NCBI GenBank assembly: GCA_013816485.1
Contig: JACDEI010000006.1
Coordinates: forward strand, 1,139 to 65,138
Direction of reading: 5' to 3'
Length of the DNA: 64,000 nt
Origin: Planctomycetota bacterium
GTDB lineage: Bacteria; Planctomycetota; UBA11346
Part shown: one piece after another, positions 1,317-10,441 of the stretch
Layout: each line of letters starts with the position of its first letter
Position numbering within the stretch: the stretch's first letter is position 1
Program-made: the position numbers and the translations under genes
Notes under the pieces: generated by a model
Database searches by the model: none
Told to the model about the DNA's origin: nothing
Seen by the model: the letters and a program-made list of their open reading frames with translations, nothing else

Positions 1317-1388
1317 CCGTGCCTGGCTCAGTGGCAGAGCATCCGCCTGATAAGTGGAAGATCGCTGGTTCGATTCCAGCGGCACGGA
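1317..1388 (+). tRNA. tRNA-Ile(GAT)
   Basis: Acceptor CCGTGCC/GGCACGG, D-stem GCTC/GAGC, anticodon loop CTGATAA (GAT), T-loop TTCGATT. CCA is not encoded. First tRNA of the array; all arms are canonical. Confidence 0.93.
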
Positions 1389-1641
1389 CTTTTTTCGGCT
1401 AGCTCAGCGCAAAGCATTCGTTGTGTTTTTTTCCGTGTCATCGTGCAGCGATGGCGCGTCTTGCTCCCCGGGAGCGCCGGCTTCTAGCCGGCCAGGGGCA
1501 ATCAGTTTTGCTGTCGTTCATTCACGATTCATGCAATCCGGACCGCAAGACAGGATTGCCCCGTGCCGGCTAGAAGCCGGCGCTCCCAGGGAGCAAGACA
1601 GGATTGCCCCTGGCCGCTGAGAAGGCGAAGCTCTCATACAT
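1389..1641. repeat. Pair of inverted extragenic palindromes
   Basis: Two copies of a palindromic element lie in opposite orientation at 1461-1503 and 1553-1597. Each has a CTGGGAGCGC-like end, a palindromic core CCGGCTTCTAGCCGG, and a GGGGCAATC end. The same family occurs near 4450, 28550, 43330, 58050, 59700 and 62330 with different cores. No gene is seen in this gap. Confidence 0.8.
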
Positions 1642-1738
1642 CTCGACGTAGCTCAGCTTGGCAGAGCGCCTAGTTCGGGTCCAGGAAGCGTCAGTAAGTG
1701 GCCTGTCGTCAGGCCATCAAATCTGGCCGTCGAGACCA
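1642..1738 (+). tRNA. tRNA-Pro(CGG) with a 21-nt T-loop insert
   Basis: Acceptor CTCGACG/CGTCGAG, discriminator A and encoded CCA. Anticodon loop TTCGGGT (CGG) on a stem with one A.C mismatch. The T-stem GTCAG/CTGGC (1690-1694 and 1723-1727) encloses T, then 21 nt (1696-1716: AAG plus palindrome TGGCCTGTCGTCAGGCCA), then TCAAAT. Removing the 21 nt restores the canonical loop TTCAAAT. The identical insert at the same position occurs in tRNA-Gly(TCC) and tRNA-Thr(CGT). Whether it is spliced or retained is unknown. Confidence 0.88.
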
Positions 1739-1741
1739 TTT

Positions 1742-1818
1742 CTAGATGTAGCTCAGTTTGGCAGAGTGCCTGGTTTGGGACCAGGAGGTCGCCGGTTCGA
1801 GTCCGGCCATCCAGACCA
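1742..1818 (+). tRNA. tRNA-Pro(TGG)
   Basis: Acceptor CTAGATG/CATCCAG with an A3.C70 mismatch, anticodon stem CCTGG/CCAGG with loop TTTGGGA (TGG), T-arm GCCGG/CCGGC with TTCGAGT, CCA encoded. Three bases downstream of tRNA-Pro(CGG), so probably cotranscribed. Confidence 0.92.
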
Positions 1819-1835
1819 TTTTTCATCTGCTTATT

Positions 1836-1908
1836 TGGACGTTAGTGGCAGTGGCCAACACGCCGGTCTGTGGCGCCGGAGACACGGGTTCGATTCCCGT
1901 ACGTTCAA
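1836..1908 (+). tRNA. tRNA-His(GTG)
   Basis: Acceptor TGGACGT/ACGTTCA, anticodon stem CCGGT/GCCGG with loop CTGTGGC (GTG), T-arm ACGGG/CCCGT with TTCGATT. The bases at -1 and 73 are T and A, which can pair but are not the G-1:C73 pair expected of bacterial tRNA-His. Confidence 0.8.
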
Positions 1909-2346
1909 TTTTTATGGGGGCTTCGCCCCCACGGCCTCGCGGCCTGCCCCCACGGACTTTGTCGTGGCTCGGGTTCGTCGTTTTTTTCATGGGGGCTTTG
2001 CCCCCACGGCCTACGGCCTGCCCCAACGGACTTTGTCGTGGCTCGACTTCGTCGGCTACGCCTCCTCAGCCGTGGGCGGATGGGCTGCGCCCATTGTATC
2101 CGCCCACCGCCACTCGGCGTCCGCGTGGAGCGGGGCTCCGCGACTTTTGAAATATCACTCACCCGTGGGCGGATGGAGCTTCGCTCCATTTTATCCGCCC
2201 ACCGCCACTCGGCGTCCGCGCGGAGCGGGGCTCCGCGACTTTTGAAATATCACTCACCCGTGGGCGGATGGAGCTTCGCTTCATTTTATCCGCTAGCGCC
2301 ACTCGGCGTACGGGCGGAGCTTTGCGCCGCGACTTTTGAAAAACAC
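1909..2346. repeat. Tandem and mosaic GC-rich repeats between tRNAs
   Basis: 1914-2060 holds two copies of a block with a GGGGGCTTCGCCCCC-type hairpin followed by CACGGACTTTGTCGTGGCTC. It is followed by three tandem units of about 93, 95 and 86 bp (2074-2166, 2167-2261, 2262-2347) starting GGGCGGATGG and ending near ACTTTTGAAA. A single mosaic copy of the same arrangement lies at 43390-43520. Long open frames here are products of GC bias, not genes. Confidence 0.85.
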
Positions 2347-2419
2347 TCAGGGATACTTCAATTGGTAGAAGGCTCGGCTCTGAACCGAGAAGCTGGTGGT
2401 TCGACTCCACCTCCCTGAA
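2347..2419 (+). tRNA. tRNA-Gln(CTG)
   Basis: Perfect acceptor TCAGGGA/TCCCTGA, anticodon stem CTCGG/CCGAG with loop CTCTGAA (CTG), T-arm GGTGG/CCACC with TTCGACT. No CCA encoded. Its 5' end abuts the last tandem repeat unit. Confidence 0.93.
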
Positions 2420-2425
2420 CTTTCG

Positions 2426-2500
2426 GCTCGCGTCGTTCAACGGCCAGGATCCTGGGCTTTCACCTCAGGGACATGGGTTCGATTCCCATCGCGAGTACCA
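2426..2500 (+). tRNA. tRNA-Glu(TTC)
   Basis: Acceptor GCTCGCG/CGCGAGT, anticodon loop CTTTCAC (TTC) on CTGGG/CTCAG, T-arm ATGGG/CCCAT with TTCGATT, CCA encoded. Six bases after tRNA-Gln(CTG). Confidence 0.93.
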
Positions 2501-2503
2501 TCT

Positions 2504-2577
2504 TCTCCTGTCGTCCAACGGTAGGACCTCGGACTTTGAATCCGAGTATCGTGGTTCGAGTCCGCGCGGGAGATCCA
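2504..2577 (+). tRNA. tRNA-Gln(TTG)
   Basis: Acceptor TCTCCTG/CGGGAGA, anticodon stem TCGGA/TCCGA with loop CTTTGAA (TTG), T-arm CGTGG/CCGCG with TTCGAGT, discriminator T, CCA encoded. Confidence 0.9.
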
Positions 2578-2581
2578 TCAC

Positions 2582-2655
2582 GTCTGGCTCGCTCAATGGC
2601 CGAGCACCCGGTTGAAGCCCGGACCATCGTGGTTCGATTCCACGGCCAGACACCA
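2582..2655 (+). tRNA. tRNA-Phe(GAA)
   Basis: Perfect acceptor GTCTGGC/GCCAGAC, D-stem GCTC/GAGC, anticodon loop TTGAAGC (GAA) on a stem with one outer C.A mismatch, T-arm CGTGG/CCACG with TTCGATT, CCA encoded. Confidence 0.9.
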
Positions 2656-2679
2656 GTCGTTCATGTGTCATTTTCACCT

Positions 2680-2764
2680 TGGCAGGTGCCCCGAATGGTA
2701 AGGGACCCGGCTGTTAACCGGGCGGTGCGCGAGCACCATGTAGGTTCGAGTCCTACCCTGCCAG
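2680..2764 (+). tRNA. tRNA with Asn anticodon (GTT) and Tyr-like long variable arm
   Basis: Acceptor TGGCAGG/CCTGCCA, D-stem CCC/GGG, anticodon stem CCCGG/CCGGG with loop CTGTTAA (GTT), T-arm GTAGG/CCTAC. The variable region (2723-2739) is 17 nt with hairpin GGTGC-GCGA-GCACC, whereas tRNA-Asn normally has 5 nt. The CCC/GGG D-stem and extra arm resemble bacterial tRNA-Tyr, whose GTA anticodon differs by one base; the G discriminator fits Asn. A standard tRNA-Asn(GTT) exists at 14133. Aminoacylation identity is uncertain. Confidence 0.8.
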
Positions 2765-2990
2765 ATTTTCTAGTCAGGGGGTCTGACGACCCCCCGACAA
2801 CGCGGCTGCGCCGCTGCGCTTTCTTCGGTCCTGTTCGCCTGCGGCGAACGCTCCGCTGTGCGGAGCATCCGGCGTAGCCGGATGGACCTCCAAGTTTTCA
2901 AGTCAGGGGGTCTCACCGACCCCCCGACAACGCGGCTGCGCCGCTGCCCCTCTTGCTCCACAGATTCAGCAGAGCCGAATAAAACTCGCT
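2765..2990. repeat. Two copies of an inter-tRNA palindromic repeat
   Basis: Two copies (about 2773-2820 and 2905-2955) have a GGGGGTC...GACCCCCC hairpin followed by GACAACGCGGCTGCGCCGCTG. They flank a run of short hairpins such as TTCGCCTGCGGCGAA. Related copies occur at 3372-3437, 3765-3812, 4195-4330 and 5703-5830, only between tRNA genes in this window. Confidence 0.8.
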
Positions 2991-2991
2991 G

Positions 2992-3336
2992 TTGACATGA
3001 AAACATTGTGGCTACATATATCCGCATCGCCGCACACAGCGGTTCACTCCCGCAGCCCCCTCCACCACCCTCACGAGCCATGTCACCCTCCTCCCTCCAT
3101 CACACCAGAACGATGCCCACACGCTCGCTAACGAACGTGGCCGGATCGTGGTGTGTCGGTTGCGAATTGCGTCCGTCGCTGATGGCGATGAGCGCGACGA
3201 ACAGCGCGAAACGAACCGATCAGGGTGATTGCACCAACTTTACTTCCAATCTGCCGGGACCACCTGGATGATCTGACGCTCACGCGTTCGACCTTCCTGA
3301 AGACCCCGGCGGATACCCGCCGGGGTCTTCGCGTTT
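2992..3336 (+). ncRNA. Candidate small-RNA cassette: promoter motif to terminator
   Basis: Begins with TTGACA at 2992-2997 (possible -10 CATATA at 3015, 17-bp spacer) in the motif shared with 1030. It ends with an intrinsic terminator at 3299-3336. Between them is about 280 nt with no convincing protein gene, no RNase P or tmRNA signature, and no tRNA. A transcribed noncoding RNA is inferred from the promoter-terminator pairing only. Confidence 0.35.
3299..3336 (+). terminator. Intrinsic terminator
   Basis: Perfect hairpin with 14-bp arms (GAAGACCCCGGCGG and complement) around ATAC, followed by GCGTTT. Closes the cassette that starts at 2992. Confidence 0.75.
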
Positions 3337-3522
3337 CCGGTGTGGTTTTGAAAACTCTAGAACGTCGTGCTTTCATGTGGGGGTTCTGCATCAGGCCGAA
3401 CCCCCACAAAACGCGCCTCCGGCGCTGCCCCCTCTCACAGAGAGGAGAAGGTTCTGGAGGCGTTTCTTTTTCTTCCGGCTGCTGCATCGCAGCAGAGCGC
3501 TTGCGCTCAATGGCCGGAACAT
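3337..3522. repeat. Palindromic spacer before tRNA-Ala
   Basis: Contains GTGGGGGTTC...GAACCCCCAC (3378-3409), then a copy of the CGCGCCTCCGGCGCTGCCCCC repeat tail shared with other inter-tRNA spacers, and a GCTGCTGCATCGCAGCAG hairpin. No gene seen. Confidence 0.6.
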
Positions 3523-3594
3523 GGGCCTGTAGTGCTAGCGGCAACACACCTGGTTTGCACCCAGGAGTCAGCGGTTCGATTCCGCTCGGGTCCA
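3523..3594 (+). tRNA. tRNA-Ala(TGC)
   Basis: Acceptor GGGCCTG/CGGGTCC with the G3.T70 wobble that marks tRNA-Ala, anticodon stem CCTGG/CCAGG with loop TTTGCAC (TGC), T-arm AGCGG/CCGCT with TTCGATT. CCA not encoded. Confidence 0.93.
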
Positions 3595-3609
3595 AGATTT
3601 TATGTTTCA

Positions 3610-3747
3610 GACTGCTGCAGGAGCGTTCGCGCTCTGACCAGTGATCCGCCTTAAACCCGGTAGTTTCCCAATCTGAGCGCACCCAGGTAATGGACTGGTG
3701 CGTAACTGGCTTGAATCCGGGGCGTCGGTTAAATCCGACCAGCAGTC
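3610..3747 (+). ncRNA. tRNA-like or other structured RNA, unassigned
   Basis: Closed by an 8-bp acceptor-like stem GACTGCTG/CAGCAGTC. Inside are a UUCG-capped hairpin GAGCG-TTCG-CGCTC, a 7-bp stem GCGCACC/GGTGCGT, and a 3' arm GTCGG-TTAAAT-CCGAC placed like a T-arm but with a 6-nt loop lacking the C. No reliable anticodon can be assigned; ACTGG-CTTGAAT-CCGGG could be read as Ser(TGA). It may be a tRNA with inserts, a decayed tRNA, or an unrelated RNA. Confidence 0.4.
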
Positions 3748-3764
3748 GATTTGTTTTCAGTCGG

Positions 3765-3812
3765 GGGGATCTGACGATCCCCCCAACAACGCACCTTCAG
3801 CGCTGCCCCCCT
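3765..3812. repeat. Inter-tRNA palindromic repeat copy
   Basis: GGGGGGATCTGACGATCCCCCC hairpin region followed by AACAACGCACC...GCGCTGCCCCCC, the same element as at 2773 and 4284. Confidence 0.65.
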
Positions 3813-3836
3813 TCTTGATCAATGGGGCGCATTCAC

Positions 3837-3911
3837 GGTTCCATCGTCTAACGGCCAAGACGGCTGCCTGTCGAGCAGCGGATCGGGGTTCGATTCCCCG
3901 TGGAACCGCCA
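3837..3911 (+). tRNA. tRNA-Asp(GTC)
   Basis: Perfect acceptor GGTTCCA/TGGAACC, anticodon stem GCTGC/GCAGC with loop CTGTCGA (GTC), T-arm CGGGG/CCCCG with TTCGATT, discriminator G and CCA encoded. Confidence 0.94.
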
Positions 3912-3923
3912 TCACTTCGGAGC

Positions 3924-3992
3924 CACTCACCGTCCCGCGGACGGGGCAGGCCGCAACCCTGCTGGCAAGTGGTTGAACTCCACTCGGCGTGT
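3924..3992 (+). tRNA. tRNA-Cys(GCA)-like, irregular acceptor and D arms
   Basis: Anticodon stem GCAGG/CCTGC is perfect with loop CCGCAAC (GCA). The T-stem AGTGG/CCACT carries loop TTGAACT, where TTG replaces the usual TTC. The 3' acceptor strand CGGCGTG is followed by T, the discriminator typical of tRNA-Cys. The 5' side is irregular: CAC and CCG (3924-3932) match GTG and CGG but with an internal TCA/C loop, and the D arm is short. Start is uncertain; it may be decayed. Confidence 0.55.
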
Positions 3993-4063
3993 CTTTTCTC
4001 AGCGTCACCAGGGAATGGCCAACGTGCCACGGCAGACCGTTCCCGGATCCGGCGCTCTCTTTC

Positions 4064-4134
4064 GGGCCGCAAGCATTGGGGAGATGCACCTGACTTTTAA
4101 ACAGGGGATCAAGGCTCGACTCCTTGGCGGCCCA
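4064..4134 (+). tRNA. tRNA-Lys(TTT)
   Basis: Perfect acceptor GGGCCGC/GCGGCCC, D-stem GCAT/ATGC, anticodon loop CTTTTAA (TTT) on CCTGA/ACAGG with one A.A mismatch, T-stem CAAGG/CCTTG with an unusual loop CTCGACT. CCA not encoded. Confidence 0.85.
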
Positions 4135-4194
4135 CTGAATTTCCTTCTGGCGCGGAAGCGGCCAACATGCGGCGCGCAGACCCTTCCCGTTCGC

Positions 4195-4330
4195 CCCTCT
4201 TCTTCGGTCCTGCTCGCCTACGGCGAGCACTCCGCTGCGCGGAGCATTCGGCTGCGCCGAATGGACCTTCGGGTTTCCAGTCAGGGGGTCTGACGACCCC
4301 CCGACAACGCGCCTGCGGCGCTGCCCCCTC
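4195..4330. repeat. Inter-tRNA palindromic repeat copy
   Basis: Short hairpins CTCGCCTACGGCGAG, CTCCGCTGCGCGGAG and ATTCGGCTGCGCCGAAT are followed by GGGGGTCTGACGACCCCC and CGCCTGCGGCG. The order of hairpins matches 2820-2955, so this is a composite repeat. Confidence 0.75.
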
Positions 4331-4337
4331 TACTTCC

Positions 4338-4409
4338 GGGATGCAAGCATACGCGGCGATGCAGCCGGCTCTTAACCGGCAGAACCAGGTTCGAGTCCTG
4401 GGCGTCCCA
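4338..4409 (+). tRNA. tRNA-Lys(CTT)
   Basis: Acceptor GGGATGC/GCGTCCC, D-stem GCAT/ATGC, anticodon stem GCCGG/CCGGC with loop CTCTTAA (CTT), T-arm CCAGG/CCTGG with TTCGAGT. CCA not encoded. Confidence 0.93.
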
Positions 4410-4446
4410 CTTTTCAGAATTTACCAACCACCACGAGCAACACGGT

Positions 4447-4531
4447 GCGCCTCCTGGGAGAGGCGAGCCCCAGCTCGCCTTGCCTTTGTCGCTAGGCGAG
4501 CTGGGGCTCGCCCCTCCCAGGGGGCACGCTG
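4447..4531. repeat. Large extragenic palindrome
   Basis: Arms carrying CTGGGAG and AGGCGAGC/GCTCGCCT (one arm 4455-4486, the other 4493-4524) form a long inverted repeat around TTTGTCG. The outer CCTGGGAG/CTCCCAGG ends match the palindrome family at 1461, while the core sequence is different. Confidence 0.75.
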
Positions 4532-4549
4532 TGGCGATCAGGTTTAGTG

Positions 4550-4963
4550 TGTTGCAGCCAGGCTACCGCTGAACTTCGGCAGCCATCATCCCACGATCGC
4601 TTTCCGCTCACATGATTTCCCAGCGCGTTGCCCGCTGGTTCACCACCGTTGCGCGTATCCACGGTGGCGTCGTAAGACGATAGGCAGAAGCCTGAGGTCA
4701 GGGTGCCAGGGTCGACCGGTGCCTCCATCCTCGACAGGCGAGCGATCCAGACCGTTTGGCAGCGGTCGTGATCGCGATCAGTTCCCGGCCGTGAGCCGCT
4801 GTGCCAACAGCGGAGTGCTGGCCGGGGATTCAGCAGGTCCATCAGGACCATTGCTGACGATACGAAGCCAGTGAACGGGAGTAACGTCCCGGTGTGCTGA
4901 CCTCGGATAACACCGAGGAATCACTGGCATGGGCTCAGCAGTGCTGAAGAGCCCTTTCTTTTT
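4550..4963 (+). ncRNA. Candidate structured noncoding RNA with intrinsic terminator
   Basis: About 400 nt without a protein gene but dense in perfect helices on one strand: CCAGCG/CGCTGG, CCACCGT/ACGGTGG, a nested pair CCCGGCC/GGCCGGG enclosing CCGCTGT/ACAGCGG, GGTCC/GGACC, and CCAGTGA/TCACTGG enclosing hairpins CGGGAGTAACGTCCCG and CCTCGG/CCGAGG. It ends in hairpin GGGCTC/GAGCCC plus TTTCTTTTT (4931-4963). It lacks the conserved RNase P, tmRNA and SRP RNA motifs. Function unknown; it may be cotranscribed with tRNA-Lys(CTT). Confidence 0.55.
4931..4963 (+). terminator. Intrinsic terminator
   Basis: GGGCTC/GAGCCC stem with an internal CAGCAGTGCTG hairpin, directly followed by TTTCTTTTT. The U-tract fixes the + strand for the structured RNA upstream. 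Confidence 0.85.
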
Positions 4964-5090
4964 CCGATGGTCGCCATGCGACCGTCACCATTCTCGCCGT
5001 TGCCTCGACGGCCTTCTCAGAGCAGGGGATCCACGCGACCGGCAGACCGGCGCGGCGCAATGTGAGCGCAGATCTCCCAGAGGCATTTCT

Positions 5091-5164
5091 ACAGCGATGG
5101 TCCAGTGGCCGGGCCCCGGTTTCCAAAACCGGTGAGTGGGGTTCGATTCCTCATCGCTGTGCCA
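5091..5164 (+). tRNA. tRNA-Trp(CCA)
   Basis: Perfect acceptor ACAGCGA/TCGCTGT, anticodon stem CCGGT/ACCGG with loop TTCCAAA (CCA), T-arm TGGGG/CCTCA with TTCGATT, discriminator G and CCA encoded. Confidence 0.93.
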
Positions 5165-5165
5165 T

Positions 5166-5324
5166 CCCTGTGTCGTTCAGCGGCAGGACTGCACGCTGCC
5201 AGCGTGCGGACCCCCGGCTCGGCGGAGCTCGCCGCACTGCGCGCGGCACGGACAGCGCGCAGGCGCTGTCCTATCGGCCTGTGGCCGATGCCGTGCTCGG
5301 GTTCGAATCCGGGCACAGGGTCCA
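5166..5324 (+). tRNA. tRNA-Gly(GCC) with an 84-nt structured insert in the T-arm
   Basis: Perfect acceptor CCCTGTG/CACAGGG, D-stem GTTC/GGAC, anticodon stem GCACG/CGTGC with loop CTGCCAG (GCC), discriminator T and CCA. The T-stem CCCGG (5213-5217) and CCGGG (5309-5313) with loop TTCGAAT is interrupted by 5218-5301. The insert folds as a junction: GCAC/GTGC closing GGACAGCGC/GCGCTGTCC and ATCGGCC/GGCCGAT. A copy of about 90% identity sits in tRNA-Thr(GGT) at 6919-7078. The exact insertion boundary is ambiguous by a few bases. Confidence 0.83.
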
Positions 5325-5347
5325 TTTCATTTATTCTCGTTTTCTCT

Positions 5348-5443
5348 CCGTGCTTGGCCGATCGGTCGAGGCACCGGTTTTCCAAACCGGGTAAGTGGGT
5401 AAGTGGCCTGTCGTCAGGCCATCGATTCCCGCAGCACGGTCCA
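5348..5443 (+). tRNA. tRNA-Gly(TCC) with a 21-nt T-loop insert
   Basis: Perfect acceptor CCGTGCT/AGCACGG, anticodon stem CCGGT/ACCGG with loop TTTCCAA (TCC), T-stem GTGGG/CCCGC, CCA encoded. The insert at 5401-5421 is identical to the one in tRNA-Pro(CGG) and again lies after the first T of the T-loop (T, insert, TCGATT). GTAAGTGGG just before it duplicates the start of the insert. No other Gly(TCC) gene is in the window. Confidence 0.87.
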
Positions 5444-5445
5444 AT

Positions 5446-5520
5446 GCCCTCGTCATCTAACGGATAGGATACGAGACTACGAATCTCGTCACGGCGGTTC
5501 GAATCCTCCCGAGGGCGCCA
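5446..5520 (+). tRNA. tRNA-Arg(ACG)
   Basis: Perfect acceptor GCCCTCG/CGAGGGC, anticodon stem CGAGA/TCTCG with loop CTACGAA (ACG), T-stem GGCGG/CCTCC with one C.T mismatch, CCA encoded. Three bases after tRNA-Gly(TCC). Confidence 0.92.
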
Positions 5521-5537
5521 CTTTTCTGCGGTCATCT

Positions 5538-5609
5538 GCTGCGGTCGTTCAATGGACAGGACCCCGCTTTCCGAAAGCGGCAATGATGGTTCGAGTCCAT
5601 CCTGCAGCG
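5538..5609 (+). tRNA. tRNA-Arg(CCG)
   Basis: Acceptor GCTGCGG/CTGCAGC, anticodon stem CCGCT/AGCGG with loop TTCCGAA (CCG), T-arm GATGG/CCATC with TTCGAGT, discriminator G, no CCA. Confidence 0.92.
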
Positions 5610-5622
5610 GCAATATCCATCG

Positions 5623-5696
5623 ATCGGGGTAGCTCAACCGGACAGAGCGGCCGGCTTCTACCCGGCAGGTTGTGGGTTCGAAGCCCACCCCCGTTT
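5623..5696 (+). tRNA. tRNA-Arg(TCT)
   Basis: Acceptor ATCGGGG/CCCCGTT with a T.T mismatch, D-stem GCTC/GAGC, anticodon stem GCCGG/CCGGC with loop CTTCTAC (TCT), T-arm GTGGG/CCCAC with TTCGAAG. The 3' end runs into a T-tract. Confidence 0.87.
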
Positions 5697-5863
5697 TTTC
5701 AGGCCCATTTTCGCCGTTGGCGAAAATCCCCGCTGCGCGGGGTTACCTGGCTTCGCCAGGAGGGCCTGGTTTTCAGTCGGGGGCACCGCCCCCGACAACA
5801 CGCCTCCGGCGCTGCCCCCGCTGGCGCTAAACTGTGCGCTCCGTGCGAGCGGCGACATCACCC
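5697..5863. repeat. Composite palindromic spacer
   Basis: Hairpins ATTTTCGCCGTTGGCGAAAAT, CCCCGCTGCGCGGGG and CCTGGCTTCGCCAGG precede GTCGGGGGCACCGCCCCCGAC and CGCCTCCGGCG, the same composite layout as at 2820-2955 and 4195-4330. No gene seen. Confidence 0.7.
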
Positions 5864-5939
5864 TGCGGGTTCACCGGAGATGGATCCGGACCGGCCTCAT
5901 AAGCCGACCAGGCTGGATCGTTACCAGCACCCGCAACCA
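5864..5939 (+). tRNA. tRNA with CAT anticodon (Met or Ile2), aberrant T-loop
   Basis: Perfect acceptor TGCGGGT/ACCCGCA, discriminator A and CCA encoded. Anticodon loop CTCATAA (CAT) on a stem with one outer mismatch. The T-stem GCTGG/CCAGC is perfect but the loop is ATCGTTA instead of TTCRANT. Base pair T1-A72 and the lack of three G-C pairs in the anticodon stem argue against an initiator tRNA. Elongator Met and lysidine-modified Ile2 cannot be separated here. Confidence 0.8.
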
Positions 5940-5976
5940 CCTCATCGTTTACTCACCCCTCTCCAGGAGATTTCCC

Positions 5977-6192
5977 GTGTTCATTCCCATCCCCCTCCCA
6001 CGCGGCGTGTCGCTACGCGACGCCAAGCGCCTGCGGTCACACGCAGACTGGTATCTGCGCGAAGCCGCGCGCCATGGCCCCGGTTATGGTTCCAAGCGCT
6101 TCGAACGGCAGCGCCAGCGCCGTCTACGCTACATACACACGGTCGCATCCGCGACCGCGCGTATCGGCTCGGCCTTACGAAGTCACCTTTAG
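5977..6192 (+). CDS. Possible 71-aa basic protein
   Basis: Start GTG at 5977 with AGGAGA seven bases upstream. The product is rich in Arg (VSLRDAKRLRSHADWYLRE, then KRFERQRQRRLRYIHT) and looks helical, as a small RNA-binding protein might; no family recognised. Its last 13 codons overlap the 5' strand of the tRNA-Leu(TAG) candidate at 6155, which argues against one or the other being intact. Real but unusual, or spurious; coding potential is moderate only. Confidence 0.35.
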   Translation: MFIPIPLPRGVSLRDAKRLRSHADWYLREAARHGPGYGSKRFERQRQRRLRYIHTVASATARIGSALRSHL

Positions 6193-6251
6193 GTGATAAG
6201 CCGTAGAAACCGTAATGGTCAATGCGGGTCCGAATCCCGTCGCGCGGACCA
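6155..6251 (+). tRNA. tRNA-Leu(TAG), irregular
   Basis: Perfect acceptor CCGCGCG/CGCGCGG, discriminator A, CCA encoded. The variable arm (ACC-GTAAT-GGT) and T-arm GCGGG-TCCGAAT-CCCGT resemble those of tRNA-Leu(CAA) at 7911. Loop TTTAGGT is that of bacterial Leu(TAG), but its stem TCACC/GATAA has two C.A mismatches, and the segment can instead fold as TCACC-TTTA-GGTGA. Probably a Leu tRNA that is decayed or needs an unusual fold. Confidence 0.55.
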
Positions 6252-6252
6252 C

Positions 6253-6369
6253 GCTGTCGTCCCCTTCGGGGAGGCTTCGCACTAGCTCAATCGGCAGAGC
6301 GCCGCTTTCGTAAAGCGGAGGTCGCAGGTAAGTGGCCTGTCGTCAGGCCATCAACTCCTGCCGACAGCA
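6253..6369 (+). tRNA. tRNA-Thr(CGT) with two inserts
   Basis: Perfect acceptor GCTGTCG/CGACAGC, anticodon stem CCGCT/AGCGG with loop TTCGTAA (CGT), T-stem GCAGG/CCTGC. The first insert of about 23 nt (6260-6282), containing CCC-TTCG-GGG, separates the acceptor strand from TA-GCTC of the D arm. The second is the 21-nt T-loop insert (6330-6350), identical to those in Pro(CGG) and Gly(TCC); without it the loop is TTCAACT. CCA is not encoded. All stems remain perfect, which argues against simple decay. Confidence 0.83.
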
Positions 6370-6399
6370 CTCGTCATCACACCAACCCAGGAGGCCGTA

Positions 6400-6724
6400 T
6401 GGCACGCCACGATCACGACGAACCCTGCTTTCGAAACCACCAGCAAACGCCGTAAGGGCTTCCCATCCGAGACCCATGTGAAGCGCGGCCTGCGCATCGT
6501 CCGGGGGTGCAAAAGACCTGCTGGAGAAACTCGGCCGGAATGATCCATGCCCCTGTGGATCGTGGCGCCGCTTCAAGGACTGCTGCCTGCACAGCGGCCG
6601 TTTCGACGGTGCGAACCGTCAGCACTTTTTTCAGAGACTAGACGTCCGCCTCAGGGAAATCCTGAGGAACTCTGAAACCCGGAGGCGATCGCCAACCGAT
6701 CGCCTCCGGGTGGATGCGATTTGA
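6400..6724 (+). pseudogene. Frameshifted SEC-C motif protein
   Basis: ATG 6400 follows AGGAGG and opens [11 protein letters not shown], but this frame stops after 18 codons. A second frame continues with [19 protein letters not shown] and LRIVRG, and a third with [18 protein letters not shown] then [15 protein letters not shown], which is a clear SEC-C zinc motif (CPCGS..RFKDCC). Two shifts are needed to join them, so this looks like a broken small SEC-C protein. An intact SEC-C gene is at 14307. Sequencing error or programmed frameshifting would be alternatives. Confidence 0.6.
6678..6710 (+). terminator. Strong hairpin, terminator-like
   Basis: Arms CCCGGAGGCGATCG and complement (14 bp, perfect) around CCAAC, without a U-tract. 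A smaller hairpin CCTCAGG/CCTGAGG lies at 6651-6667. May end the SEC-C transcript or be a processing structure. Confidence 0.45.
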
Positions 6725-6758
6725 CGTGCAGGCTGAAGCCTGCGGTCCCAGGTTTCCT

Positions 6759-6829
6759 GCCCCTGTAGCTCAAGTGCAGAACACCGGCTCTGTAACCCGG
6801 CGGTGGAGGTGCGACTCCTCCCGGGGGCT
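6759..6829 (+). tRNA. tRNA-Thr(TGT), irregular
   Basis: Acceptor GCCCCTG/CGGGGGC, T-arm GGAGG/CCTCC with loop TGCGACT. Anticodon loop read as TCTGTAA (TGT) on CCGGC/CCCGG with a C.C mismatch next to the loop; base 33 would then be C instead of T. The D-stem has one mismatch. Anticodon assignment is the best of the alternatives tried, but not certain. Confidence 0.65.
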
Positions 6830-6837
6830 CTTTTCAT

Positions 6838-6911
6838 CGGCGTCTTGCTCAATGGTAGAGCCGCTGGCTTACATCCAGCAGACGGTGGTTCGATTCCATC
6901 GACGCCGACCA
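6838..6911 (+). tRNA. tRNA-Val(TAC)
   Basis: Perfect acceptor CGGCGTC/GACGCCG, anticodon stem GCTGG/CCAGC with loop CTTACAT (TAC), T-arm GGTGG/CCATC with TTCGATT, CCA encoded. Confidence 0.93.
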
Positions 6912-6918
6912 ATTTCCC

Positions 6919-7078
6919 GTCCGTGTGGCTCAATGGCAGAGCGCTTCGTTGGTAACGAAGCGGCTGCCCCGGCTCGCTGAGCTCGCCGGACTGCGCTCGG
7001 CACGGACAGCACGCAGGTGCTGTCCTATCGGCCTTCGGCCGATGCCGTGCTCGGGTTCGATTCCACCCATGGGCACCA
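6919..7078 (+). tRNA. tRNA-Thr(GGT) with structured insert, T-stem broken
   Basis: Acceptor GTCCGTG/CATGGGC (two wobbles), D-stem GCTC/GAGC, anticodon stem CTTCG/CGAAG with loop TTGGTAA (GGT), CCA encoded. From about 6967 to 7055 it carries the same type of insert as tRNA-Gly(GCC): GGACAGCAC/GTGCTGTCC and ATCGGCC/GGCCGAT under GCAC/GTGC. The 3' T-stem strand CCACC has no complementary 5' strand beside the insert, so unlike the Gly gene the T-stem cannot form as written. Possibly non-functional. Confidence 0.7.
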
Positions 7079-7133
7079 CGTCTCTCTTCTCTCTGCATTC
7101 CTTCACCCCTCACCCCATCCCAAGGAGGATCTC

Positions 7134-7676
7134 ATGTCACGCTGCCTGGTGCTCAACGCCAGCTATGAATACCTGTCGATCGCCGATCGTTGGATCGACG
7201 CACTTACCCTGGTGCTGAGTAAGAAGGCCACGCCGATCGAGGAGTATCCCGAGGTCGTACGCAGCCAGCGCGAGGATTTTCGTCTGCCGGCCGTGGTGGT
7301 GATGAACCGCTACGTGAAGACCCGGCGCAAAGTCCGCCTGTGGATCGTGCCGACGCGCAAACTGGTATTCAGCCGTGACGGATTTCGCTGCCAGTACTGC
7401 GGCACCGGCGTCAATATGAAGACCGGCACGCGTGACCACGTGCAACCGTTGTCGCGTGGTGGTCCAGACGTGCTGGCCAACGTCGTGACCGCGTGCCGTG
7501 ACTGCAACGGCCGCAAGGACGACCGCACGCCGGATGAGGCCGGCATGAAACTGCTCAGCCAGCCGCGTTCGCTGACTGAGTCGGAGAAGATCCAGTGTCT
7601 GCTGAAAACCTGCCGGACCAAGGAACGAGACACGTGGCTGGAATGTCTGACGCGCATCGGCGTACGACTTGGATGA
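7134..7676 (+). CDS. HNH endonuclease family protein
   Basis: 180 aa. The start is fixed by AAGGAGG seven bases before ATG 7134; an upstream in-frame extension runs through tRNA-Thr and is spurious. The C-terminal half has the HNH fold signature: FSRDGFRCQYCG (first CxxC), RDHVQPLSRGG (catalytic DH) and ACRDCNGRKDDRTP (second CxxC plus N). This family of short HNH proteins is common in bacteria and its cellular role is usually unknown. Its place inside a tRNA array whose members carry inserts at one site suggests it could cut tRNA-gene DNA as a homing-type nuclease, but that is inference; it could equally be an unrelated resident gene. Confidence 0.9.
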   Translation: MSRCLVLNASYEYLSIADRWIDALTLVLSKKATPIEEYPEVVRSQREDFRLPAVVVMNRYVKTRRKVRLWIVPTRKLVFSRDGFRCQYCGTGVNMKTGTRDHVQPLSRGGPDVLANVVTACRDCNGRKDDRTPDEAGMKLLSQPRSLTESEKIQCLLKTCRTKERDTWLECLTRIGVRLG

Positions 7677-7683
7677 TTGGACC

Positions 7684-7718
7684 TGCCTCCGGATCACTCC
7701 GGTGGCGGGGGCTTTTCT
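7684..7718 (+). terminator. Terminator-like hairpin after the HNH gene
   Basis: CCTCCGG/CCGGTGG hairpin followed by CGGGGGCTTTTCT, eight bases past the HNH stop. Moderate strength. Confidence 0.5.
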
Positions 7719-7741
7719 GCTACGTGAACATGACAACTGGA

Positions 7742-7852
7742 ATCGAACAGGAGGCGCGGAGACGCGGAGCTCAGATGAGGTTCGACCTCTCACTGAAACG
7801 CCACACGGCCTCGCCTCTTCCGAACTCCGCGTCTCCGCGCCTCCTGTTCGAT
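7742..7852. repeat. Long inverted repeat with 28-bp perfect arms
   Basis: Arms at 7742-7769 and 7825-7852 are perfect complements; the left arm contains GGAGGCGCGGAGACGCGGAG. The 55-bp centre has no gene. It could form a large cruciform or a transcript hairpin. Confidence 0.85.
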
Positions 7853-7910
7853 CGGATTTACTGGATGGGATTTTCCGCTTCCGATGGCGAGAACGTATTT
7901 TTCATCACGT

Positions 7911-7996
7911 GCGCTGGTGGTGGAACTGGCAGACATGGCGGGCTCAAACCCCGTCGACCGTCAAGGTCATTGCGGGTCTGAATCCCGCCCGGCGCA
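7911..7996 (+). tRNA. tRNA-Leu(CAA)
   Basis: Acceptor GCGCTGG/CCGGCGC, anticodon stem GCGGG/CCCGT with loop CTCAAAC (CAA), long variable arm GACC-GTCAA-GGTC, T-arm GCGGG/CCCGC with loop TCTGAAT (not TTCGAAT). Discriminator A, no CCA. Confidence 0.88.
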
Positions 7997-8142
7997 GCAG
8001 GTGTGGGTAGAGGAACTGGCAGACTCGTCTAGCTCAGTACCAGGAGTGGCGAAAGCTTGATGTGGGTAAGTGGGCAAGTGGGCAAGTGGGCAAGTGGGCA
8101 AGTGGCCTGTCCTCAGGCCAGCGACTCCATCTGCTTCGACCA
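7997..8142 (+). tRNA. tRNA-Leu(CAG) with expanded T-loop insert
   Basis: Starts on the base after tRNA-Leu(CAA). Acceptor GCAGGTG pairs with CATCTGC (8128-8134); alternatively the end is TGCTTCG-A-CCA (8132-8142). Anticodon loop CTCAGTA (CAG), stem with one A.C mismatch. After GTGGG-T (8062-8067) come four tandem AAGTGGGC units (8068-8099), then the 21-nt insert (8100-8120, loop TCCT instead of TCGT), then GCGACT. The T-stem 3' strand fits poorly in either reading, so the gene may be damaged. Confidence 0.6.
8068..8099 (+). repeat. Tandem repeat AAGTGGGC x4
   Basis: Four perfect 8-bp units directly before the 21-nt T-loop insert of tRNA-Leu(CAG), whose own first bases AAGTGG match the unit. 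Suggests slippage or template switching at the insert edge. Confidence 0.95.
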
Positions 8143-8187
8143 GACTCTATCCGACTACATGAACGACCATCGGTTGACGCATGACGC

Positions 8188-8844
8188 ATGATGCCCGAAC
8201 TGCTCCCTGCGAATCGGGCTTGCCGGATCCGCGGCCTATCCATCGTTACTGACATGGGTCTGCTGTGGTGGCGTCAGAAAAAACCGGCCGAGAAGGCGAA
8301 ACTCCCCGGGCCGCGGATCGATCGGGATGCCGTGGTGGGCGCTCTCCGCGCGAACGATTTCATTTTTCATGCCGGTACACCGCGATGCCATGATTCCGGC
8401 TGGCATGGCATCCTGCTCAATGCACCTCGACGCATTATTGTCCGACCACAGCCCAGAGATCCCATGTTTGGTGATGACGCTCCTCGTGCGCTGATCTGGG
8501 GCCATTGCCTGTTCCCCGATCGCCCGGGAGAAGGACACAGCGATTACCGCACGGACATCACCTTGGTCGCGGTGGAGATCACCAAGGGCCAGGTCTACCG
8601 TGGCCGCGTCACCGAACGCCCAACGTTCGGCTCAGTCCACTGTTTCATTAATCCCCAACGACCAGCGCTTCCGGCAGATTCAGCCACGGGTCGCCTCACC
8701 TCCTCGGGAGGACCTTTCAACCCCAACCTCCTGGCCATCTGTGGCCTCCCATGCACCGATGCAGACTATGAGATCTTCGCCTTGTTGGGCACGTGGCGGT
8801 CGAATGTGATCGACGTGTCATTGCGGTTCGAACTCGGCAACTGA
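8188..8844 (+). CDS. Hypothetical protein
   Basis: Up to 218 aa; the start is uncertain. ATG 8188 gives an N-terminus of poor quality, while ATG 8254 (MGLLWWRQKKPAEKA) gives a better one of 196 aa; neither has a clear Shine-Dalgarno site. No signal peptide, membrane segment or known motif seen. The middle contains WGHCLFPDRPGEGHSDYRTD and VAVEITKGQVYRGRV, giving a mixed alpha/beta look. First protein gene downstream of the tRNA array and on its strand. I do not recognise the family. Confidence 0.6.
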   Translation: MMPELLPANRACRIRGLSIVTDMGLLWWRQKKPAEKAKLPGPRIDRDAVVGALRANDFIFHAGTPRCHDSGWHGILLNAPRRIIVRPQPRDPMFGDDAPRALIWGHCLFPDRPGEGHSDYRTDITLVAVEITKGQVYRGRVTERPTFGSVHCFINPQRPALPADSATGRLTSSGGPFNPNLLAICGLPCTDADYEIFALLGTWRSNVIDVSLRFELGN

Positions 8845-8908
8845 GGTCTTGCCGGCTGTGAACATCGCTCGATAGCTGGTCCCCACATAATCAGTCCAGG
8901 AACATTGC

Positions 8909-10441
8909 ATGACCCGTCGCCTGTTTGTCATTGCCCTCATTTTTCTGACCAGTGGCTACTCGATCGCCAGCGATGCTCCTGCGCTCCTGCGTAGCACCCC
9001 GGAAAAACAGGGCATCGCCTCATCCGCGATCCTCTCCTTCGTCCAGACGGTGGATCAGGACATCGACGGCATGCACAGCTTCATGCTGCTGCGCCATGGC
9101 CACGTGGTCGCAGAGTGTTGGTGGAAACCGTACGACAGCGAGACGCCGCATATTTTCTTTTCGCTGAGCAAGAGTTTCACCTCCACGGCGGTCGGTATCG
9201 CCATCGCCGAGGGCAAGCTCAGCCTGGACGACGAAGTGCTCAAGGCGTTCCCTGGTGAAGCACCGGCAGAGCCGTCGGCGAATCTGAAAGCGATGCGTCT
9301 GCGCGATCTGCTGCGCATGCAGGCGGGACATGAAAAAGAGCTTTCGTTCTGGAAGGAAGTCGGCGGCGAGAATGGCGACTCCTGGACCAAGCGCTTCCTG
9401 GCGCATCCGGTGACCTTCAAGCCGGGCACGCGATTTCTCTACAACACGCCGGCGACCTTCATGGCCGGCGCGATGGTGAAGCAGGCGACCGGCGAGGACA
9501 TCCTCGACTACCTCACGCCGCGCCTGTTCGCCCCCATCGGCTTCAAGAGCCCGACGTGGGTGAAGAATCCCCAGGGTCTGTCGGTCGGCGGTTATGGCTT
9601 GATGGGCCGCACCGAGGACATCGCGCGCTTCGGGCAACTGTTGTTGCAGCGGGGCATGTGGAACGGCAAACAGCTCGTGCCGGCGGCGTGGGTCGATGAG
9701 GCGACCGCGCTGCAGACCAGCAACGGCAGCAATCCGGCGAGCGATTGGGACCAAGGCTACGGTTACCAATTCTGGCGTTGCCAGCACGGTGCCTACCGCG
9801 GCGACGGCGCCTTCGGCCAGTACTGCATCGTCATGCCCAAGCAGGACGTGGTGATCGCCATCACCGGCGGCCTGTCGAACATGCAGGCGGTGCTGAATCA
9901 GGTGTGGGACAAGCTGCTGCCGGCGATGCAGCAGGACGCGTTGGCAGAGGACGCCGCCGGTGCCAAGGCGCTGACAACCAAGCTCGCCGCGCTCACCATG
10001 CGTATGCCGATGGGCCAGGCGACTTCGCCCATCGCCGCGAGCATCTCCGGCATGCGTTTCCCGTTCACTGAGAACGAACGCGGCATCACCGCCCTCGGCC
10101 TCGATACGTCGACCCAGCCACCGGCTCTGCTGGTGCGTACCGCCGCGGGCGAGACGCGCATGCCAGTGCCCTTCGGTTCATGGAGCGCTCCTGCGCCCGG
10201 CTTCACCAACCACCTCGAACGCTCGCTGAGCGTGCCAGCGAATCCGACGGTGTCGGCCAGCGGCGCGTGGACCGCGGACGACACCTTCACCATCAAGCTG
10301 GTGCTGAACCAGACGACCTTCTCTTCGACGCTGAATCTGAAGTTCGCTGCTCAGAAGCTGACGTTCAGTTCGAAGCACAACGTCAACTTCGGACCGACGG
10401 CGATGCCGGAGTTGGTCGGGCAGATTCCGCCGACGCGGTGA
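8909..10441 (+). CDS. Serine hydrolase, beta-lactamase/class C penicillin-binding fold
   Basis: 510 aa with a signal peptide (residues 1-20, MTRRLFVIALIFLTSGYSIA), so probably exported. The N-terminal 340 residues match the beta-lactamase-like serine hydrolase family: SLSK at 85-88 gives the SxxK nucleophile and general base, and FLYNT at 176-180 sits where the YxN motif is expected. The remaining 170 residues form a separate beta-rich tail typical of secreted esterase or peptidase members. Substrate unknown. Convergent with the isomerase gene, 13 bp from its stop. Confidence 0.85.
   Translation: MTRRLFVIALIFLTSGYSIASDAPALLRSTPEKQGIASSAILSFVQTVDQDIDGMHSFMLLRHGHVVAECWWKPYDSETPHIFFSLSKSFTSTAVGIAIAEGKLSLDDEVLKAFPGEAPAEPSANLKAMRLRDLLRMQAGHEKELSFWKEVGGENGDSWTKRFLAHPVTFKPGTRFLYNTPATFMAGAMVKQATGEDILDYLTPRLFAPIGFKSPTWVKNPQGLSVGGYGLMGRTEDIARFGQLLLQRGMWNGKQLVPAAWVDEATALQTSNGSNPASDWDQGYGYQFWRCQHGAYRGDGAFGQYCIVMPKQDVVIAITGGLSNMQAVLNQVWDKLLPAMQQDALAEDAAGAKALTTKLAALTMRMPMGQATSPIAASISGMRFPFTENERGITALGLDTSTQPPALLVRTAAGETRMPVPFGSWSAPAPGFTNHLERSLSVPANPTVSASGAWTADDTFTIKLVLNQTTFSSTLNLKFAAQKLTFSSKHNVNFGPTAMPELVGQIPPTR

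Follow-up and report, generated by a model that had tools for sequence, protein, structure and literature searches.

Short hairpin elements interrupt tRNA genes of a redundant array in a planctomycete bacterium and its relatives

Bacterial tRNA genes have been reviewed as structurally uniform, and the interruptions listed in that review were group I and group II introns at position 37/38 only (PMC4033280). Short, mobile-looking single and double hairpins were described as the mitochondrial RHE/DHE elements (PMC2800124) and as the palindromic repeats of Volvox (PMC2670323), and in fungi the copies inside genes were reportedly kept in the transcripts, away from structurally important parts (PMC2800124). 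Redundant tRNA arrays with an HNH gene were described on M. avium plasmids and were called putative antidefence units (PMC12803027). The present analysis concerns a stretch of 64,000 nucleotides (nt) of a Planctomycetota bacterium (GCA_013816485.1, contig JACDEI010000006.1, positions 1,139 to 65,138), hereafter the window, in which several tRNA genes of a redundant array were found to contain short hairpin inserts, including the same 21-nt hairpin in unrelated genes. The source is a freshwater planctomycete bacterium, represented by a metagenome-assembled genome in which planctomycete cytochrome domains were found. Like the M. avium units, the locus contains clustered tRNA genes redundant with a chromosomal set and one HNH gene inside, whereas here the host is a planctomycete and many of the tRNA genes are interrupted by hairpins, which the accessible part of the M. 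avium account does not mention (PMC12803027). The RHE/DHE and Volvox elements resemble the inserts in form but are organellar and occupy mostly intergenic, rRNA or intron sites, whereas the present inserts lie chiefly in the loops of bacterial tRNA genes. Group I and II introns likewise interrupt tRNA genes; however, they are self-splicing and located at 37/38 (PMC4033280), whereas the present inserts are about 12-105 nt long and Rfam scans of the window and of ten loci of relatives returned tRNAs only.

The 21-nt insert, consisting of AAG followed by the 18-nt palindrome TGGCCTGTCGTCAGGCCA, was found between T54 and T55 of tRNA-Pro(CGG) (insert 1696..1716, gene 1642..1738), tRNA-Gly(TCC) (insert 5401..5421, gene 5348..5443) and tRNA-Thr(CGT) (insert 6330..6350, gene 6276..6373), all on the + strand, as the initial annotation had read; the T-stem was paired at 5/5 positions in each of the three genes, and removal of the insert was confirmed to restore the loops TTCAAAT, TTCGATT and TTCAACT, respectively. 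A pattern search allowing up to 3 mismatches placed the palindrome exactly at 1699, 5404 and 6333 and with 1 mismatch at 8103, four sites against a chance expectation of about 0.07 near-matches in shuffled sequence, in agreement with the earlier statement that the window holds no other copy. The fourth site lies in the T-arm of the degenerate tRNA-Leu(CAG) (insert 8100..8120, gene 7993..8142, + strand). The single base change reported for this copy was present, but the clean setting implied for it was not, as the hairpin was preceded by five tandem 8-mers (GGGTAAGT, then four copies of GGGCAAGT; GGGYAAGT, 8066..8105, + strand) resembling the variable loop and T-stem of Gly-TCC, and was followed by GCGACT, not TC. 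At up to 2 mismatches, a search of the whole own genome (5.2 Mb in 101 contigs) yielded no further copy; the palindrome was site-specific, with no scatter beyond the array. The exact 23-mer pattern gave zero matches in 85k genomes and in IMG/VR, and a search of 200 relatives at up to 3 mismatches returned only scattered matches with 2-3 mismatches, at about the frequency of a reversed-pattern control. A 12-nt match between the left arm and the beginning of a tRNA-Gln in L135 was suggestive at most.

All of the 21-nt copies start with AAGTGG, and among the four carriers only Gly-TCC was found to supply these bases from its own variable loop and T-stem GGTAAGTGGGT, the native GTAAGTGGGT being present before the insert. 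The sequence GTAAGTGG was found on the + strand of the window at the four insert loci only. Because of this repeated start and this restricted occurrence, the hairpin was probably born in Gly-TCC through local tandem or fold-back duplication, and the donor direction was probably from Gly-TCC to Pro-CGG, Thr-CGT and Leu-CAG, as judged from the sequences. The spread would have taken place by copying, with the GGTTCRANTCC stretch common to tRNA genes as the guide for template switching or gene conversion, which would give an identical insert position without an intron-like target; the HNH enzyme of the array has a putative role as a supplier of DNA breaks. The reading preferred here, with a confidence somewhat above even, is that small hairpin elements were copied between conserved tRNA arms in redundant arrays, where they were tolerated and not spliced; on this reading the tRNA-gene loops of such an array have been colonised by several kinds of short palindrome, the 21-nt hairpin among them.

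Two of the four host genes were found to be damaged. The Thr-CGT gene retained 2/7 acceptor pairs and contained no CCA, and in Leu-CAG the 5′ acceptor strand was formed by the 3′ terminus of the Leu-CAA gene ahead of it (overlap 7993-7998); both carriers are likely dead. The Pro-CGG gene contained 7/7 acceptor, 4/5 anticodon-stem and 5/5 T-stem pairs, and Gly-TCC contained 7/7, 5/5 and 5/5, respectively, followed by the presence of CCA in both. In the predicted folds of these two RNAs the acceptor and T-stem were paired with the hairpin stacked atop the T-arm, and folding around the insert is possible on this model. All four carriers were skipped by ARAGORN. Insert-free genes for all four isoacceptors, whose existence the initial annotation had left to be checked, were present elsewhere in the same genome (Gly-TCC in L007, Thr-CGT and Pro-CGG in L012, Leu-CAG in L034). 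A second tRNA set was found dispersed outside the array, which makes the array redundant and would explain why inserts are tolerated; some of the carriers may be pseudogenes.

Further, different inserts, missed by the initial annotation, were found in the array of the window, all on the + strand. The tRNA-Gly(GCC) gene (5166..5324) contained a double-hairpin element of about 84-85 nt in the T-arm (about 5217-5301), which was shared by tRNA-Thr(GGT) (6919..7078; element about 6966-7052, 91% identity over 89 nt), where the T-stem was overwritten by the copied Gly-GCC/Thr-GGT tract with 2/5 pairs left. The tRNA-Asn(GTT) gene (2680..2767) contained a 17-nt hairpin variable arm, GGTGCGCGAGCACC; this arm was long in the relatives G007, G012 and G023 and short in G021, G001 and G003. 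Comparison with its homologues in L070 and L073 showed that a tRNA-like gene (about 6157-6251) has a hairpin of about 20 nt (6178..6197) inserted into its anticodon loop. A small open reading frame (ORF) at 5977-6192 (MFIPIPLPRGV...) overlaps the 5′ half of this tRNA-like gene and has its stop codon in the anticodon loop, in the window within the inserted hairpin; a similar ORF was present in the arrays of relatives, and no match to it was found in PHROG or NCBIfam.

Insert-bearing tRNA genes of relatives were located by long-gap alignment and by a cloverleaf search allowing one insertion, and some of the inserts were read by eye and not scored. The cloverleaf search gave 13 insert-bearing genes at a score of at least 22 against none in shuffled sequence, and the same search gave zero inserts in arrays of five other families (L135, L136, L140, L142, L146). 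A further 20 or so tRNA genes in arrays of the same planctomycete family were found to carry structured inserts of other kinds; roughly 27 interrupted tRNA genes are present in the family in all, with insert lengths of about 12-105 nt. The inserts of the related genomes were other than the 21-nt hairpin. The inserts were located mostly in T-loops and also in variable loops, anticodon loops and the D/anticodon junction. In G003, of the same genus, a 31-nt hairpin was inserted cleanly into Phe-GAA, between C56 and G57. Inserts were found in Gly-GCC, Trp-CCA, Val-TAC, Arg-CCT, a TAU-like gene and Ala-TGC of G007, in Gly-GCC, Ser-GCT, Glu-CTC, Pro-TGG, Lys-TTT and Lys-CTT of G012, in Gly-TCC, Thr-GGT and Leu-TAA of G021, and in Ser-CGA, Val-GAC and Gln-TTG of G023. 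In the anticodon arm of G007 Ala-TGC (L127, minus strand, positions 1233-1319 of stretch 4600-7600 turned round) the insertion is a fold-back, CGTTTGC...GCAAACG. G021 also contained a tRNA-like gene with a structured interruption of about 200 nt (L070, minus strand, positions 408-635 of the array stretch 3000-9000 turned round), which was missing in the sister G023 and had no Rfam intron match.

The larger inserts were found to be double hairpins of a T-type and a V-type with a common GCGAGCAC/GTGCTCGC terminus, some of their stem pairs being changed on both sides. A single family for all inserts was considered and rejected, as no evident similarity in sequence connects the 21-nt hairpin with the double-hairpin types. 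A model of the T-type (R1), trained on 5 copies, found four extra copies in array tRNA genes, in Ser-GCT, Glu-CTC and Pro-TGG (reverse orientation) of G012 and in Trp-CCA of G007 (weak, reverse), and also matched weaker intergenic relatives. A model of the V-type (R2) gave strong scores to its seven training copies alone, and strong V-type matches were confined to arrays. Restriction of the T-type to tRNA genes was proposed and dropped, as one full-length copy was intergenic in the own genome (G000:C21); these elements reside chiefly, though not exclusively, in tRNA loops. In the planctomycetes sampled beyond the family, neither model gave a match at E <= 1e-6. Among 85k genomes, the T-type core pattern was found in this family and in three other contigs, none of the three near a tRNA.

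Six tRNA genes (Gly-TCC, Ser-CGA, Leu-TAA, Thr-GGT, Val-GAC and Gln-TTG) had a site that was filled in one and empty in the other of the sister arrays of G021 and G023, and their remaining sequence was almost identical. The 68-nt V-type core showed 97-98% identity between Arg-CCT of G007 and the Lys genes of G012, and 94% to Val of G023; the array DNA common to different genera showed mostly 65-88%. T-type inserts were 87-88% identical within a genome versus 78% in the same gene across genomes. Together, the near-identical V-type cores in different tRNAs, the closer T-type copies within genomes and the filled and empty sites indicate, by sequence comparison, that the elements are copied within and between genomes, and the double hairpins would have spread similarly to the 21-nt type. 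Slippage and fold-back in decaying genes might instead have made the hairpins locally, without mobility, and the tandem 8-mers in Leu and Gly, the fold-back of G007 Ala-TGC and the redundancy of the array agree with this; but copying is needed for an identical 21-mer in four unrelated genes and for a core that is 97-98% identical between two genera and lies in different tRNAs, and a purely local origin was considered improbable.

The initial annotation had raised the prospect of a new class of removable T-loop insert, for which an intron-like excision from RNA by some unknown bacterial splicing activity would give functional tRNAs. The 21-nt insert and the 31-nt insert of G003 Phe-GAA are clean, and their removal restores TTCAAAT, TTCGATT, TTCAACT and TTCGATT on paired T-stems, respectively, with acceptor stems and CCA mostly kept in the carriers; for these two inserts excision would be compatible with the sequence. 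However, T-type inserts were found to replace A58-N59-T60 (TTCG|ACT|CC becomes TTCG|CCC...CTCGC|CC), and the Gln-TTG and Thr-GGT inserts of relatives replace 5′ anticodon-stem bases; because the larger inserts mostly replace tRNA bases in this way, clean excision could not give back a normal tRNA. The tRNA-splicing endonuclease domain PF01974 was not found in 24 family genomes, which are incomplete metagenome-assembled genomes, with 4 archaeal controls positive. An Rfam gathering scan of the window and a scan of ten relatives' loci returned tRNAs and no group I/II self-splicing core, for which the inserts are too short to leave room. With insert-free copies making splicing needless and two of the four carriers decayed, the removable class was not borne out; the inserts are probably not spliced, and true introns are highly improbable.

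Several points weigh against unspliced, tolerated copies as the preferred reading. No empty-site sister was found for the 21-nt copies of the window, so that the direction from Gly to the others rests on sequence logic. Pro-CGG, Gly-TCC and most carriers of relatives contained nearly intact stems and CCA, as if selected or very recent, and by reading, Gly-GCC of G007 versus G012 contained two compensated pairs (anticodon stem and T-stem), a hint of constraint after insertion that is tempered by the absence of U33 in the G007 gene. The elements were tied to no transposase or copying enzyme, and since carriers were found largely via alignment to tRNAs, spacer insertions could be under-counted. 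Measured against the features of mobile hairpins, near-identical copies at unrelated sites were found for the 21-nt and V-types, and empty-site polymorphism for the double-hairpin types in the sister arrays. Genome-wide dispersal was not found, the 21-nt copies and strong V-type matches being confined to arrays and the T-type mostly so. The palindromic elements of Rickettsia, also small palindromes inside bacterial genes, may be taken as an apt analogy; they are larger, have been described chiefly in protein genes and are dispersed genome-wide.

The array itself (1317..8142, + strand) was found to contain 19 tRNAs called by ARAGORN in addition to insert-bearing and degenerate tRNA genes, and one embedded HNH endonuclease gene (7134..7676, + strand; Pfam HNH_5 1.6e-13, PHROG 16726 1.8e-27). 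Homologous HNH DNA was found in the arrays of relatives, and the same array type, with tRNAs and often HNH, was present in several genera of the planctomycete family. Among phages and plasmids, the array DNA matched lone tRNA or HNH genes over short lengths only, and no homologous array was found. The carriers might serve as functional, unspliced enlarged tRNAs or as decoys against tRNA-cleaving defence or toxin enzymes whose recognition the inserts alter. The mostly intact stems, the predicted folds of Pro and Gly, with acceptor and T-stem kept and the hairpin on the T-arm, and the label of putative antidefence units given to the M. avium arrays with embedded HNH (PMC12803027) are consistent with such a role; but two of the four window carriers are broken, insert position and sequence vary between genomes, and no nuclease partner was seen, no search having been aimed at one. 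Such a role was judged unlikely. A broader proposal is equally doubtful, namely a family of tiny structured elements that specifically target tRNA genes of bacterial arrays at their T-, variable and anticodon loops and move between genes and genera at the DNA or RNA level, the carriers either still serving as enlarged tRNAs or decoys or being freed of the insert by an unknown excision activity.

The array also contained a small SEC-C-type ORF (6399-6630), apparently broken by stops or frame changes in several genomes; DNA like it was found across the phylum, also outside tRNA arrays. The spacers at 2087-2341 and 2767-4331 contained GC-rich tandem or palindromic repeats with 95-nt and 58-nt units, and other spacer repeats near 1985-2125 of the window were dispersed through genomes of the family.

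Palindromic elements within the loops of bacterial tRNAs were not found by a literature search, a negative that does not prove their absence. Hairpin-interrupted tRNA genes are missed or mis-called by tRNA finders, which calls for caution in their use. The presence in one bacterial family of about 27 interrupted tRNA genes with recent gain and loss contrasts with the uniform picture of bacterial tRNA genes (PMC4033280), and the family allows tests of the way in which short palindromes spread, of the reasons why they enter tRNA loops and of the purpose of redundant tRNA arrays.

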